From: a virus
DNA: 25,739 nucleotides
Direction: 5' to 3' (one strand)
Virus record (IMG/VR): IMGVR_UViG_3300033145_001394
Span: 1-25,739 of that record
In this document: positions 1,200-9,227 of the stretch, piece after piece
How positions within the stretch are numbered: position 1 is the stretch's first letter
How the letters are laid out: each line of letters begins with the position of its first letter
Translations under genes and position numbers: made by a program
The notes under the pieces: model-generated
Told to the model about the DNA's origin: nothing
What the model saw: the letters and a program-made list of their open reading frames with translations, nothing else
The model's database searches: none

Positions 1200-1210
1200 T
1201 TTACGCAACC

Positions 1211-1218
1211 TTTATATA
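1211..1218 (+). promoter_or_regulatory. TATA box in the divergent promoter region
   Basis: CCTTTATATATACC (1209-1222) is a strong archaeal TATA box on the plus strand. A transcript would start near 1241-1245, giving a leader of about 30 nt with AAAGGGGT (1260-1267) before ATG 1274. The core TATATATA is self-complementary, so on the minus strand it reads TATATATAAAGG and could also serve the RHH gene starting at 1172. A second TATA-like stretch, TGTATAATATAG, lies at 1231-1242. Confidence 0.55.
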
Positions 1219-1273
1219 TACCTGATTGAATGTATAATATAGCACGTGTAAAGCAAAAGTAAAGGGGTAAACT

Positions 1274-2089: not shown

Positions 2090-2211
2090 GCGATGACCGC
2101 CCAGACGTACTCGATCACCTAGACGAACAGGAACGTGAGGCTTTAATCGAAGAGCAGGAGCGCCAGTATCAGCTGTACGGGGACCTCTACTGCTCGGAGG
2201 ACCAGATATGA
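2086..2211 (+). CDS. 41-aa acidic peptide, function unknown
   Basis: This is a 41-codon ORF, very acidic (start MSDDRPDVLDHLDEQEREAL), and probably one long helix. Its start overlaps the preceding stop by ATGA and its stop overlaps the next start by ATGA, matching the operon pattern exactly. No homologue is recognised. Confidence 0.45.
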   Translation: MSDDRPDVLDHLDEQEREALIEEQERQYQLYGDLYCSEDQI

Positions 2212-3347
2212 TCATCACAGGCCTCTCAGAGCAGCAGATTCAGTACCTGAAAGAGATGATCAACGAACACATCAAAGAACTTGAAGCCGATATCGCGGGC
2301 TGGAAACACGCCATCGAACGCCTCGATGGAAGCCCCGATACCTCTAAAAGTGATACTTCTAAAGGTGATGCCCAAGAGGAGGGGGCGCCCGAACTCACAT
2401 CCACCCCACCCAAGCTGAAGCACGCAACGCACACGCCGATAGTCGGCAGGGGCTACAGCCTCGCCATCCGGGAGGGACCTCTGAAGGATCTCCTGGAGCT
2501 CGAGACCGTGAACGCCGCCACCGCCAGGCCCGTGATACGCGATTGGTACCCGCTCGTAACTAAATCCACTGCCAACAATTATGCCGACCAGTACGTCAAG
2601 TGGATGCGCAGCATGGGACTCATCGACCAGAACGGCAAACCGGCCGCTTCGTCCACGCCGGAGTCTGTGCTGAAGGCAAGAACAAGAGCGAAGAAGGAAG
2701 AGCCACCCGTTGAAGGCGGTCAAAAGGCGACGGACACGCCGATAGTAGGGCGGACCAGAACGCTGGCCATTCGAGAAGGCCCTCTGCGAGAACTCATGGC
2801 GCTGGAAGTCGTGACCCCAGACGAAGCCCAGAAAATAATACGCAAGTGGTATCCGAGCATAACAGACACGTCTGTTCTGGATTACGCGTACAGATATCTC
2901 AAATGGATGCGCGCAGAAGGGCGCGTCGATAAAGACGACAAGCCCATCAAGGCAGCACAGGAATCCAACGAAGTCGGCCAGGCCATGTATGACGAGCAAG
3001 TGGGACGGAACAGAAACAAGGACGAGGGACCAAAAAGTCCTGCGCCGCCCGAGACAGAAGCAGGAAAGGAGGAAGCGGAGGAAACCGACCTGGTCCATCC
3101 GGCCCGGAAGGACCTCACAGTCGTAGCGATTAAAAACGATGTCGAGATCTACCTGGAACCGCTCAACGAACTTTTGAAATTACCATCCATCGACGATGCT
3201 GCACTCGAGAAGGTCTTAAACAAATACTACGAAGTGTCGCGGCCATCCTTCCAGGTCGCCATCAGGGAAACCTGGAAGCAATTTTTGGAGGACGACAAAC
3301 TCGTCGATGAGCACGGCCAGCCGACGTGCCAGGAGGTGGAGATATGA
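2208..3347 (+). CDS. 379-aa protein with three tandem repeat domains
   Basis: Residues 1-40 form a probable coiled coil (SEQQIQYLKEMINEHIKELE). Two close copies of a domain of about 71 residues follow at 75-145 and 176-246. Each has TPIVGR, L.IREGPL.(D/E)L, a W-Y-P motif, Y...Y.KWMR and a final D..(G/D)KP. A third, diverged copy lies at about 303-372 and keeps PLNELL, KYY, TWKQFLEDDKLVD and GQP. Charged, low-complexity linkers separate the copies (41-74, 147-175, 247-300). The S/T...Y...Y.KWMR.(M/E)G helix followed by a short turn resembles a helix-turn-helix unit, so three tandem DNA-binding modules are possible, but that is a guess. It is ATGA-coupled at both ends. Confidence 0.65.
   Translation: MIITGLSEQQIQYLKEMINEHIKELEADIAGWKHAIERLDGSPDTSKSDTSKGDAQEEGAPELTSTPPKLKHATHTPIVGRGYSLAIREGPLKDLLELETVNAATARPVIRDWYPLVTKSTANNYADQYVKWMRSMGLIDQNGKPAASSTPESVLKARTRAKKEEPPVEGGQKATDTPIVGRTRTLAIREGPLRELMALEVVTPDEAQKIIRKWYPSITDTSVLDYAYRYLKWMRAEGRVDKDDKPIKAAQESNEVGQAMYDEQVGRNRNKDEGPKSPAPPETEAGKEEAEETDLVHPARKDLTVVAIKNDVEIYLEPLNELLKLPSIDDAALEKVLNKYYEVSRPSFQVAIRETWKQFLEDDKLVDEHGQPTCQEVEI
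2430..3323 (+). repeat. three internal domain repeats of the 379-aa protein
   Basis: The copies are at 2430-2642, 2733-2945 and 3114-3323. Copies 1 and 2 match clearly at protein level (TPIVGR, REGPL, KWMR). Copy 3 is recognisable mainly by spacing and by the YY, W and final DxxGxP positions. The pattern indicates domain duplication with a recent second copy and an older third. Confidence 0.6.
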
Positions 3348-3510: not shown

Positions 3511-3747
3511 ATGGCTGAAGAAACTGAAACAGAAAAGACGGTAGCGGAAACGATGGTGGATGAACTGATTAAGATCAGGGCATCGTTGGAGCGCTTGGAG
3601 AGAATAGGGATTTCCAGGGATTTGATGGCGATCTACATCAACAAAAAGACGCGGGTCAGCATGCGCGACATCAAGGCCGTCCTGGAATCACAGGAAGACT
3701 TCGTTAAATCCTTGGATAAGCCGTTTTTCAGTAACGTGGAGAAATGA
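3511..3747 (+). CDS. 78-aa helical protein, function unknown
   Basis: I choose ATG 3511, two nt after the previous stop and preceded by GGGGGT. The longer frame from 3430 is a shadow of the membrane protein. The sequence is mostly helical and charged (ETMVDELIKIRASLERLERI, then ISRDLMAIYINKKTRVSMRD), with a possible small DNA- or protein-binding fold in the second half. No family is recognised. Confidence 0.5.
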   Translation: MAEETETEKTVAETMVDELIKIRASLERLERIGISRDLMAIYINKKTRVSMRDIKAVLESQEDFVKSLDKPFFSNVEK

Positions 3748-3762: not shown

Positions 3763-3978
3763 TTGGAATTGAAAGTAGAGAGGTTGGTAACGACCGAGAA
3801 GGCAGACGGAACGACAGAGGAGAAAGTAGTCTTGAAGGGCGATAGCGATGTGTTATGCATGACGCTCACTATCACCGGAGAGGACGTTACAAAGTGCTAC
3901 GTCGCGGGCGAACCGTTCTCGATAGAGCTGGACCCACTCCAGACCACGCTGGATGAAGCGGGAGGCAAGAAGAAATGA
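3763..3978 (+). CDS. 71-aa beta-rich protein, function unknown
   Basis: The start is TTG, decided by GGAGGTG 5 nt upstream. The protein alternates strand-like stretches (LKVERLVTTEKADG, EEKVVLKGDSDVLCMTLTI, YVAGEPFSIELDPL) and ends in a basic tail (GGKKK). It looks like a small all-beta protein. The stop overlaps the next start by ATGA. No family is recognised. Confidence 0.5.
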   Translation: MELKVERLVTTEKADGTTEEKVVLKGDSDVLCMTLTITGEDVTKCYVAGEPFSIELDPLQTTLDEAGGKKK

Positions 3979-4241
3979 ACCTCGAACCGTTCTCCAAGTC
4001 CTGTAAACTCTGGCACGAATCCGGCGATATCCCCTCGTACATCCTCGAGGATATGCAGAGGGAAGCGGACAACGTGGAGGACATCGCTAAAGCCATACTC
4101 AAGGCAGACAGGGAGAGAAAAGACAGGCCACTGATCACAGACGGACTGGGCGCGCAGATGCACACACTGATCAGGGAGCTCATATTCTATCGGAACACAT
4201 ACGACATGAAGATAGTCGAGCTCAGAACGTGGGAGGGGTAA
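3975..4241 (+). CDS. 88-aa helical protein, function unknown
   Basis: ATG 3975 overlaps the previous stop. The protein is helical and charged, with KLWHESGDIPSYILEDMQRE in the first half and MHTLIRELIFYRNTYDMKIV in the second. It overlaps the probable start of the winged-helix gene by 13 nt. No family is recognised. Confidence 0.5.
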   Translation: MNLEPFSKSCKLWHESGDIPSYILEDMQREADNVEDIAKAILKADRERKDRPLITDGLGAQMHTLIRELIFYRNTYDMKIVELRTWEG

Positions 4242-5260
4242 AATTTCAGACCGGATTGGAATTATCCAAGAGTTCGTACACCACTGAGGATGATTCGTAC
4301 ACCACTGAGAAACCCAAGAGAGTCGAATTCGTACACCCTGTTCGTACACCCCGTGGTAGTAAGGACAAAAACCCCCTCGATGATCTGGACCAGAAGATCC
4401 TGAAATTGTTACCAAATGGATATTACTGCAGGTCTCTCGCGCGAGTTCTTAAGCGATCTACATCAACAATCCAGTATCGACTGGAAAAGCTCCAGAAATT
4501 AGGCATAATCACCCCAGAAAAGCATAACATCGCCAACAATTCCACAGTCACGTATTCTATCGCTCCCAGCTGGGTGGCCGAACTTTTCTCACTAGGAGTG
4601 AGAAATGCCCCTCAAACTGCCCCATTTAGCGCCCACGCGATGCTATGGCGCTTTCCAATCCTCAGTGGTGTCCAGCCGAAGAGCGCTTTCCCACAGCGCA
4701 TGAATAACAGCACATTTTACAGATTTTATGAGGACAGCGCGACAATCATCAGTACGCCGAAGTCCCTCCTCATATACGTCAAGGTAGATCTGGGCGCCGA
4801 CACCATCGACAATCTCAATGCCAAATACCTTGAGATAGCGCGTTCAGTGGCGCACCAGTATGCCAAGCGCTTTGATCTCGCCTTAGGCACTCCAGACAAA
4901 CCGAGCAAGACTCATTATGCTATTAAAGGCGCCAGAATCAGCGAACTCGTCCGTGACAGAGGAACGTTTGAAACAACAGGCTTTACTATCGATGATTCAC
5001 ATGGGGAAGCGCATATCGAGACGCGGGACGAGGAGCTCGCCAAAGGCTTCGAATTCACGCTCACGGAGATGCCCAAGGTCGTAGGCAGCATGGCCAGACA
5101 AATCGCAAACGTCCAGGAGATGATAAAAGGGGGCGTTACCCAGCAGCAGGCCATCAACAACATGGCCTACATAGCAGGAAATCTGCAGTGCCAAATCAAC
5201 GAGATCAAAAAAATGCTCGAGGGTTCAAATCCCCGCGCGAAGAAGGAGGACCGGCAATGA
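4229..5260 (+). CDS. winged-helix DNA-binding protein, candidate replication or partition initiator
   Basis: The protein has 343 residues from GTG 4229, which overlaps the previous gene. TTG 4256 is an alternative, and no ATG is available near the front. Residues 1-48 are polar and low in structure, and their DNA contains four TTCGTACACC repeats. Residues 52-112 form a winged helix: DLDQKILKLLPNGYYCRSLA, then KRSTSTIQYRLEKLQKLGII, then a wing with TVTYSIAP. This is typical of Lrp/ArsR/MarR-type archaeal regulators. The remaining 230 residues match no family I know and end in a probable coiled coil (MARQIANVQEMIKG, then CQINEIKKMLEG). A DNA-binding domain, repeats in its own gene and no polymerase nearby suggest a replication initiator or an autoregulated repressor. 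Either role is inference. Confidence 0.65.
   Translation: MGGVKFQTGLELSKSSYTTEDDSYTTEKPKRVEFVHPVRTPRGSKDKNPLDDLDQKILKLLPNGYYCRSLARVLKRSTSTIQYRLEKLQKLGIITPEKHNIANNSTVTYSIAPSWVAELFSLGVRNAPQTAPFSAHAMLWRFPILSGVQPKSAFPQRMNNSTFYRFYEDSATIISTPKSLLIYVKVDLGADTIDNLNAKYLEIARSVAHQYAKRFDLALGTPDKPSKTHYAIKGARISELVRDRGTFETTGFTIDDSHGEAHIETRDEELAKGFEFTLTEMPKVVGSMARQIANVQEMIKGGVTQQQAINNMAYIAGNLQCQINEIKKMLEGSNPRAKKEDRQ
4273..4350. repeat. four direct repeats of TTCGTACACC (iteron-like)
   Basis: Perfect 10-bp copies start at 4273, 4294, 4328 and 4341 (spacings 21, 34 and 13 bp). The first two extend to TTCGTACACCACTGA. Copies 1 and 2 share a reading frame, but copies 3 and 4 fall in the other two frames, so they encode different peptides. 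The repetition is therefore conserved at DNA level and not because of the protein. They lie at the start of the winged-helix gene, as expected for operators or replication iterons bound by the encoded protein. Confidence 0.7.
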
Positions 5261-5724
5261 TCGACTCCGTGATTTTAGGATGGCATAAGCCACTGAGAAA
5301 GGCATTTCTCGAGATTCTGACGTTCTATTTCCCGCCGCCGGCCACAGTTATTGATTTGTGTGCAGGTCACAAGGAATTTTACAAGCGCATAGGTAAGAGC
5401 GGCAACACGTTGGACGGTAGATACCGCTTCATTTGGGGAGATAGACGAGCGCTGCCAAGCAACGATATACTGTGTGATATTAGAGCTGCCCCGATTAAAA
5501 ATGAGAGTGCTGACGTCGTGGTTTTTGATCCACCATACGGCGATGCGCATTACGGCCACGACCAACTTGAACGCCTCTATACGACAGTTAATCCAGAGGA
5601 TGCGATCAAACTCATGGAAGCAGCATATCCCGAGATCCTGCGCATGCTCAAACCGGGGGGGGCGTCATTCTTAAAATTGGAGACCGGCACAAAGACAAAA
5701 AGTTCTATCCGATGCACAGCATAG
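5257..5724 (+). CDS. DNA methyltransferase (N4/N6-type), N-terminal part before the frameshift
   Basis: ATG 5257 overlaps the previous stop (ATGA) and has AAGGAGGA upstream, so the frame open before it is a shadow. SAM-binding motif I is seen as TVIDLCAGHKEF (30-41) and the catalytic motif IV as VVVFDPPYGD (87-96, DPPY at 91-94). EILRMLKPGG (126-135) is the usual region just after the motif IV helix. After the G8 tract at 5655-5662 this frame reads 20 unrelated residues and stops. The rest of the enzyme continues in the -1 frame to 6008. No restriction endonuclease is nearby, so it would be an orphan methylase, usually used by viruses to evade host restriction. Confidence 0.75.
   Translation: MIDSVILGWHKPLRKAFLEILTFYFPPPATVIDLCAGHKEFYKRIGKSGNTLDGRYRFIWGDRRALPSNDILCDIRAAPIKNESADVVVFDPPYGDAHYGHDQLERLYTTVNPEDAIKLMEAAYPEILRMLKPGGASFLKLETGTKTKSSIRCTA
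5655..5662 (+). repeat. G8 homopolymer at the methyltransferase frameshift
   Basis: This is a run of eight G inside the codons for K-P-G-G. With six or nine G the frame would continue as GVILKIGDRHKDKKFYPM into the downstream open frame. With eight it stops at 5724. It may be a sequencing or assembly error, a phase-variable tract, or a -1 slippery site (G GGG GGG). Confidence 0.7.
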
Positions 5725-6008
5725 CACCGCAGATATTCAGCAGGGACTTGGAATACTATGACATGGTGATTCACAGAGGCATACATCGGAGAGCGAGGTT
5801 CAGGTTGCCGTTCGCCAATAAGAACCACAGCTATTTTATGATCTTCAAAAAGTCCAAGGCGCCGGCCAACGGCGCCATAGATTGCGCCAAACAGTGCCCG
5901 CGCTGCAATCGTGAGATGAAAGTATCGCCCGCAGTAACCCAGGTATGGCTCCAGCTCCCATGGTACGAAAAATTATGCGACATCTGCGTCAGCGAGGTGG
6001 GGCTGTGA
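5712..6008 (+). CDS. DNA methyltransferase, C-terminal part after the frameshift, with zinc-binding tail
   Basis: This is the -1-frame continuation of the methyltransferase. The homologous frame is open from the G8 tract at 5661, with ATG 5712 the first internal methionine. HSIAPQIFSRDLEYYDMVIH and FANKNHSYFMIFKK form the last strands of a methyltransferase fold (the N-HSYF.IF..K end is typical of DNA methylases). A tail follows with CPRC and CDIC pairs, a probable zinc site for binding DNA or a partner. On its own this fragment lacks both the SAM and catalytic motifs. Its stop overlaps the radical SAM start by GTGA (6005-6008), which suggests the operon was built with this frame intact. Confidence 0.65.
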   Translation: MHSIAPQIFSRDLEYYDMVIHRGIHRRARFRLPFANKNHSYFMIFKKSKAPANGAIDCAKQCPRCNREMKVSPAVTQVWLQLPWYEKLCDICVSEVGL

Positions 6009-8585: not shown

Positions 8586-9227
8586 ATGCAAATTCAAAAC
8601 CATGCGCAAATCCAGATGGTAGAGATTAAAAAAATAGTGCCGAACGATTACAACCCCAACGAGATGCCTGAGGAGCTTTTCGAGGGTATTAAAAACAACA
8701 TCAAGCGCACCGGATTCGTGGGCGCCATCGTCGTCAGGCCCACCAAGAAGGGCAAATACGTCATCATCGACGGCGAGCACAGGTACAAAGCGCTCAAGCG
8801 AGTGGGAGCAAAAGAGGTCCCCTGCATCGTCATGGACCTAGACGATTCGGATGCAAAGATAAACACGATCGCGTGGAATAAGTTGCGCGGGACCGCAAAC
8901 CCGATTAAACTGGCGCATGCCATCCACGATCTGACCGAATACTACTCGATGGAGCAGCTGGAAAAGCTCACCGGATACAGAAAAGCGGAATTGAATGACG
9001 TCCTCAAGTTGCTCAAACTCCCGACAGAGTTCAGGGATCTCGCTGAAGCGATTGAAATGGCGGCGCAAGAGGAGACCGATCGAGCCCCTGTTATAATGGT
9101 TTTCGTGGTAGATCAGGATCAGGAGCGCACAATTCTCGAGGCCGTTGAGCGAACCAAGATGAAAAAGAAGGGAGACGCGCTGTTCGAGATTTGCTCGAAG
9201 TATGTGGAGGCGCATCATGAAAAATAA
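8586..9227 (+). CDS. ParB/Srx-superfamily DNA-binding protein
   Basis: The protein has 213 residues, with GAGGTGAT just upstream of ATG 8586. The N-terminal ParB-like fold is seen in VEIKKIVPNDYNPNEMPEEL, GFVGAIVVRPTKKGKYVIID and the signature DGEHRYKAL (62-70). Residues about 110-145 (LTGYRKAELNDVLKLLKLP) carry a helix-turn-helix as in ParB/Spo0J. No ParA partner is visible. In viruses ParB-like proteins next to methylases and terminases act in partition, as CTPases, or as nucleases. Which applies here cannot be told. Confidence 0.78.
   Translation: MQIQNHAQIQMVEIKKIVPNDYNPNEMPEELFEGIKNNIKRTGFVGAIVVRPTKKGKYVIIDGEHRYKALKRVGAKEVPCIVMDLDDSDAKINTIAWNKLRGTANPIKLAHAIHDLTEYYSMEQLEKLTGYRKAELNDVLKLLKLPTEFRDLAEAIEMAAQEETDRAPVIMVFVVDQDQERTILEAVERTKMKKKGDALFEICSKYVEAHHEK

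Follow-up and report, generated by a model that had tools for sequence, protein, structure and literature searches.

Four direct repeats inside a winged-helix gene of a putative archaeal tailed virus as probable binding sites of its product and a tentative replication origin

Introduction

The location of a replication origin inside the gene of its own initiator is described as 'uncommon but not exceptional', with oriV and its iterons found within the initiator gene in pAD1, pSK1, pSK41, pLS32, pAMbeta1 and pSX267 (PMC3155836). The ori of phage lambda, with its four iterons, lies midway through gene O (PMC7466680). The RepA_N initiators of plasmids such as pSK41 and pAD1 are of the winged helix-turn-helix (wHTH) type and likewise have iterons inside their own genes (PMC3155836, PMC7145576). 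AspA of pNOB8 binds one 23-bp palindrome upstream of its own gene and works with ParB and ParA (PMC5120986). For archaeal tailed viruses, little is known about where replication starts and by which initiators, especially when the genome is small and encodes neither a polymerase nor a helicase. We analyzed a viral record of 25,739 bases (the window, which is the entire record), in which four short direct repeats lie within the coding sequence of a wHTH protein.

Results

Assignment of the virus

By sequence comparison, we assign the record to the tailed viruses of archaea because it combines an archaeal histone-fold gene (1447-1680; CBFD_NFYB_HMF, E 2e-18), a tail tube protein 32% identical to that of Haloarcula virus HHTV-1, a MuF domain closest to those of Halorubrum and Methanobacteriales viruses, a divergent promoter region with the TATA-like TTTATATA, and a terminase that shares 40% identity with that of contig L006. 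An ORF of L006 also agrees in its N-terminal sequence with ORF6 of Methanobacterium phage psiM2. The hosts are perhaps methanogens. Searches with the terminase, portal, capsid, tail tube and histone returned only distant kin.

Several other genes were noted along the record. A small CopG-like ribbon-helix-helix gene (1274-1450) immediately precedes the histone-fold gene, and positions 2208-3347 encode a 379-aa protein of no known family with a repeated motif (TPIVGR...LAIREGPL...). A short DNA-methyltransferase-like ORF at 5257-5724 is overlapped by an ORF at 5712-6008, a pair that is possibly a frameshift or a split gene.

Position and frame of the four repeats

The 10-mer TTCGTACACC occurs in four exact copies on the plus strand, and a scan of both strands of the 25,739-base record that tolerated one mismatch found no further copy. 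All four lie in the gene listed first below.

4229..5260, plus strand: gene of the wHTH protein, 343 aa, GTG start (alternative TTG at 4256); the repeat stretch codes for a polar N-terminal linker, and the C-terminal half belongs to no known family
4273..4282, plus strand: repeat 1, TTCGTACACC; the 16 bp at 4273-4288 recur identically at repeat 2
4294..4303, plus strand: repeat 2, TTCGTACACC; 21 bp after repeat 1 and in the same frame
4328..4337, plus strand: repeat 3, TTCGTACACC; 34 bp after repeat 2, in a different frame
4341..4350, plus strand: repeat 4, TTCGTACACC; 13 bp after repeat 3, in the third frame
4373..4560, plus strand: codes for the wHTH (approximately residues 49-109), which weakly matches the HTH_24, AsnC/Lrp-type and Csa3 wHTH domains

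Within ORF 4229-5260 the repeats start at codon positions 3, 3, 1 and 2, such that all three frames are occupied and the encoded peptides differ (SYT, FVHP and VRTP). The spacings (21, 34 and 13 bp) are not multiples of one unit. Repeats 1 and 2, which share both their frame and 16 bp, may derive from a 21-bp tandem duplication, leaving three independent placements; repeats 3 and 4 have only the 10-bp core in common, in two further frames. The array ends at 4350; the first wHTH helix begins 23 bp further on, at residue 49 (4373).

The start of the gene is uncertain between GTG 4229, which lacks a Shine-Dalgarno sequence, and TTG 4256, which has GGGAGGGG about 18 nt upstream, inside the GTG-started frame; neighboring genes carry GGAGG 7-9 nt ahead of their starts. 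Because no other in-frame ATG, GTG or TTG precedes the first wHTH helix, the repeats are coding under either start. The gene overlaps its upstream neighbor (3975-4241) and appears to sit within an operon.

The wHTH protein

Profile comparison of the wHTH region against PHROGs gave weak matches to phrog_3855 ('HTH DNA binding protein', E 5e-5) and phrog_678 ('replication initiation O-like', E 0.0012), and no initiator matches the region as well as archaeal transcription regulators (Lrp/AsnC, Csa3) do. Such short matches are taken to indicate the fold class, not the function. Beyond the wHTH, the 343-aa protein matches no known family. No homologue was found in IMG/VR, GTDB genomes, phage records, plasmids or 30 viral records, where the contig scans require exact 8-residue peptides and detect close relatives only. 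A structure model from the single sequence, computed with no alignment, was unusable (pLDDT 38).

Conservation of the repeats as DNA

In a window-wide scan, TTCGTACACC was the sole 10-mer with at least three copies inside 150 bp, and no such cluster appeared in any of 200 order-3 Markov simulations. We also recoded residues 1-67 with synonymous codons drawn according to the virus's own codon usage. Among 200,000 draws, none contained four copies of any 10-mer and three contained three copies; the joint probability that a recoding keeps the four observed copies is 6.5e-9. The observed copies require rare codons, for example CGT, which accounts for 12 of the 257 Arg codons. Because neither the simulations nor the synonymous recodings reproduce the cluster, we conclude that the repeats are kept as DNA and not as peptide, with the recoding result as the strongest evidence. 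These data bear out the earlier note on this DNA, which had described four perfect copies spread over all three reading frames (borne out by exact search and codon positions), had located them in a polar linker that directly precedes the wHTH domain, and had proposed that DNA rather than protein is conserved.

The four sites are thus almost certainly real DNA elements. That they are a product of chance, or a functionless remnant of tandem duplication, is very improbable: repeats 1 and 2 could indeed be a single 21-bp in-frame duplication, but repeats 3 and 4 retain the core only, in the two other frames, and the cluster as a whole arose in none of the 200 simulations or 200,000 recodings. RNA structure was rejected as an explanation of the repeat region (z -0.23).

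Flanking repeats, origin marks and promoters

Additional repeats and a promoter region were located as follows.

4658..4671, minus strand: ACACCACTGAGGAT, a perfect 14-bp inverted copy of repeat 1's right half and the adjoining flank, pairing with 4278; no inverted repeat in the window with arms less than 1 kb apart is longer
3628..3644, plus strand: first copy of the 17-bp direct repeat GCGATCTACATCAACAA, in the gene ending at 3747
4453..4469, plus strand: second copy of GCGATCTACATCAACAA, in the wHTH coding region, in a codon frame different from that of the first copy
1209..1273, no strand assigned: divergent intergenic region with the TATA-like TTTATATA at 1211

The wHTH gene is touched by both of the longest direct repeats with copies less than 2 kb apart (17 bp, 3628/4453; 16 bp, 4273/4294) and by this longest inverted repeat (14 bp, 4278/4658); the copy at 4453..4469 is a possible accessory site. 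Because simulations yield a direct repeat of at least 16 bp in about 1% of cases and a 14-bp inverted repeat in 10%, we treat these long repeats as supporting signs only.

Inspection of cumulative GC skew around 4300, proposed in the earlier note as a check, did not support an origin; the curve is lowest near 1250, in the region of the divergent promoters, and near 4250 it instead passes through a local maximum. No AT-rich melting stretch adjoins the repeats, the best 30-bp stretch being at 4700, 350 bp away. The intergenic region 1209..1273 is likely the promoter of leftward and rightward early operons. From 3300 up to the gene, no archaeal TATA-like element (TTTAWATA, at most one mismatch) was found, and a plain operator is disfavored because this element is missing upstream of the wHTH gene.

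Repeat arrays in other contigs

In IMG/VR, 58 stretches with three TCGTACAC copies inside roughly 100 bp were found, mostly periodic in-frame repeats. Contigs with TTCGTACACC pairs or TCGTACAC triples were set aside as protein repeats in most cases (in-frame, with spacings of 18 or 36 bp, among others), and others had the sites in unrelated contexts. The exception is a group of five contigs (L057, L058, L064, L075 and L095) in which TCGTACACA repeats lie in the coding sequence of a 501-aa protein, just before its wHTH; a ParA gene, read in L057, precedes the gene. For one member of the family, P0001, matches were obtained to helicase loaders of the DnaD type (E 1.2e-7) and to O-like initiators (E 2.8e-5). 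Genes of this family were located at:

L057, 7936-9441
L099, 1010-2446
L101, 2063-3340
L102, 1190-3352
L103, 1047-1796
L104, 1958-3298

The family comprises ParA-linked wHTH proteins on Legionella, Piscirickettsia and Bdellovibrio plasmids, with ParA adjoining wherever it was annotated or read; those on plasmids carry hypothetical annotations. The Piscirickettsia and Bdellovibrio plasmid relatives have repeats in the same place but of other sequences, often phased at 11 bp, and CGGAACACAA (L104), GACAAAGT (L101) and AAAGTCGG (L102) each occupy all three frames. No clear array was seen in the Legionella relative L100. A 2019 study of P. salmonis LF-89 plasmids, which may or may not carry a gene of this family, reported no iterons (PMC6963756). 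Together, these arrays indicate that the layout of repeats in a coding linker before a wHTH recurs, with the repeat sequence changing along with the protein. The window protein was rejected as a family member (hhalign probability 2.4%, no homology beyond the wHTH, no ParA).

No comparable cluster was found in the archaeal tailed viruses Blf4, PhiCh1, HFTV1, HSTV-2, HHTV-1 and vir080, some of which were read in part. Methanobacterium phage psiM2 has an intergenic TGTACATAC array between ORF4 and ORF5 (L105:2621-2815), with a partial duplication of about 80 bp and a GTACA core like that of the window repeats; it is possibly a control or origin region. Two further loci were recorded: intergenic 20-bp and 40-bp repeats in an unrelated contig (L027:10450-10704) that include GGTGTACGAA, the reverse complement of the window repeat, and, immediately ahead of a gene for a MarR-like wHTH protein, three copies of TCGTACAC spaced 23 bp apart (L052:733-786).

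Discussion

We consider the repeats to be, probably, in-gene binding sites (iterons) read by the wHTH product of the same gene. In the mechanism we propose, the wHTH protein would bind the four direct repeats inside its own gene, several copies would assemble side by side, and the resulting complex would mark the replication origin of the virus. Host archaeal replication proteins would then be recruited to it, since the virus appears to encode neither a polymerase nor a primase or helicase; in agreement with the earlier note, none was found among the ORFs scanned (a few small ORFs fell outside the scan, and the record may be incomplete). With the sites placed within the linker, protein and target would stay linked through recombination, as in lambda O and the RepA_N plasmids.

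Among the functions such sites could serve, an origin/initiator ranks as the most likely, because there is precedent in lambda O and in plasmids with oriV inside the initiator gene; the array is also the only one of its kind in the record and lies within one wHTH gene. The weak wHTH-level match to an O-like profile, and the similar layout in the P0001 family with its own matches to DnaD-like and O-like proteins, also favor this function. In absolute terms, we put this function at somewhat below an even chance. The earlier note had proposed an origin/initiator or a partition site; the part of this proposal that stands is that in-gene sites for the gene's own product are the best reading and that a bacterial family has the same layout, while the GC skew and the missing AT-rich stretch speak against an origin and the missing ParA against partition. 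The irregular spacing of the repeats and the closer resemblance of the wHTH to transcription regulators than to initiators also count against the origin/initiator.

Partition and autoregulation are weaker candidates because no ParA and no nearby promoter were found. Autoregulation, in which the wHTH protein on its in-gene repeats would block elongating RNA polymerase or an internal promoter and so limit its own level, is unlikely, although the wHTH resembles archaeal Lrp/AsnC/Csa3 regulators and the repeats are at the 5' end of the gene: there is no TATA-like element (at most one mismatch) between 3300 and 4300, the gene overlaps 3975-4241 in an apparent operon, and operators are usually found at promoters rather than in coding sequence. 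Somewhat less probable still is a centromere for the wHTH protein, or for a ParB-like protein, that keeps an episomal provirus stably inherited. Bacterial plasmids with in-gene repeats in a wHTH gene adjoining ParA, the archaeal wHTH centromere-binding protein AspA of pNOB8 (PMC5120986) and a ParB_N protein encoded at 8586-9224 would fit such a role. Against this, the ORFs scanned include no ParA, the ParB-like gene is 4.2 kb away and adjoins a D12 DNA methylase gene, methanogen virus Blf4 has a ParB-like domain fused to a methylase, and the AspA site is a palindrome, not a set of direct repeats.

A different reader of the sites, such as a host factor, the product of the ribbon-helix-helix gene at 1274-1450, or the terminase at a packaging site, is about as improbable as partition. 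The window does encode further small DNA-binding proteins, and location alone ties the repeats to the wHTH product, but no TTCGTACACC copy lies near the ribbon-helix-helix genes or the small terminase gene, and the gene's own product best accounts for a location inside the wHTH gene.

Returning to the origin/initiator, it is conceivable, at roughly one chance in three, that the protein represents a new archaeal-virus initiator family that carries its origin inside its own gene, in the linker before the wHTH. If true, and taken together with the unrelated bacterial ParA-linked family, a protein's DNA target inside its own linker-coding region would have arisen independently in bacteria and archaea. 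Were the array an origin, the single gene would constitute a self-contained replicon, testable in methanogen or haloarchaeal vectors.

Among described systems, AspA-ParBA of pNOB8 resembles the window in having an archaeal wHTH DNA-binding protein with sites near its own gene, whereas the window has direct repeats inside the gene and no ParA was found. The P0001 family is similar in that its repeats, in several or all frames, occupy the 5' coding linker directly before the wHTH, but it has an adjoining ParA, which is absent among the ORFs scanned in the window, and mostly many copies phased at 11 bp. The L057 repeat also has the core TCGTACAC in common with the window; this core was the search term and is not independent evidence, and its sharing may be a coincidence.

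RepA_N initiators likewise have direct repeats within the gene of a wHTH protein; the window differs from them in belonging to an archaeal virus and in its short 10-bp sites without obvious inverted substructure, and its protein does not match the RepA_N domain (PF06970). With Phage_rep_O, the protein has no Pfam match, only the wHTH-length match to phrog_678, and membership in either the lambda O or the RepA_N family was rejected with both domains unmatched. In lambda, the iterons lie in mid-O and adjoin an AT-rich tract, and gene P is the neighbor of O, whereas the window repeats precede the wHTH and have neither an AT-rich tract nor a helicase-loader gene. Still, both loci have four direct repeats within the coding sequence of a DNA-binding protein, in the window a putative initiator, and if the array is an origin, it would extend the design of lambda O and RepA_N to a new archaeal protein family.
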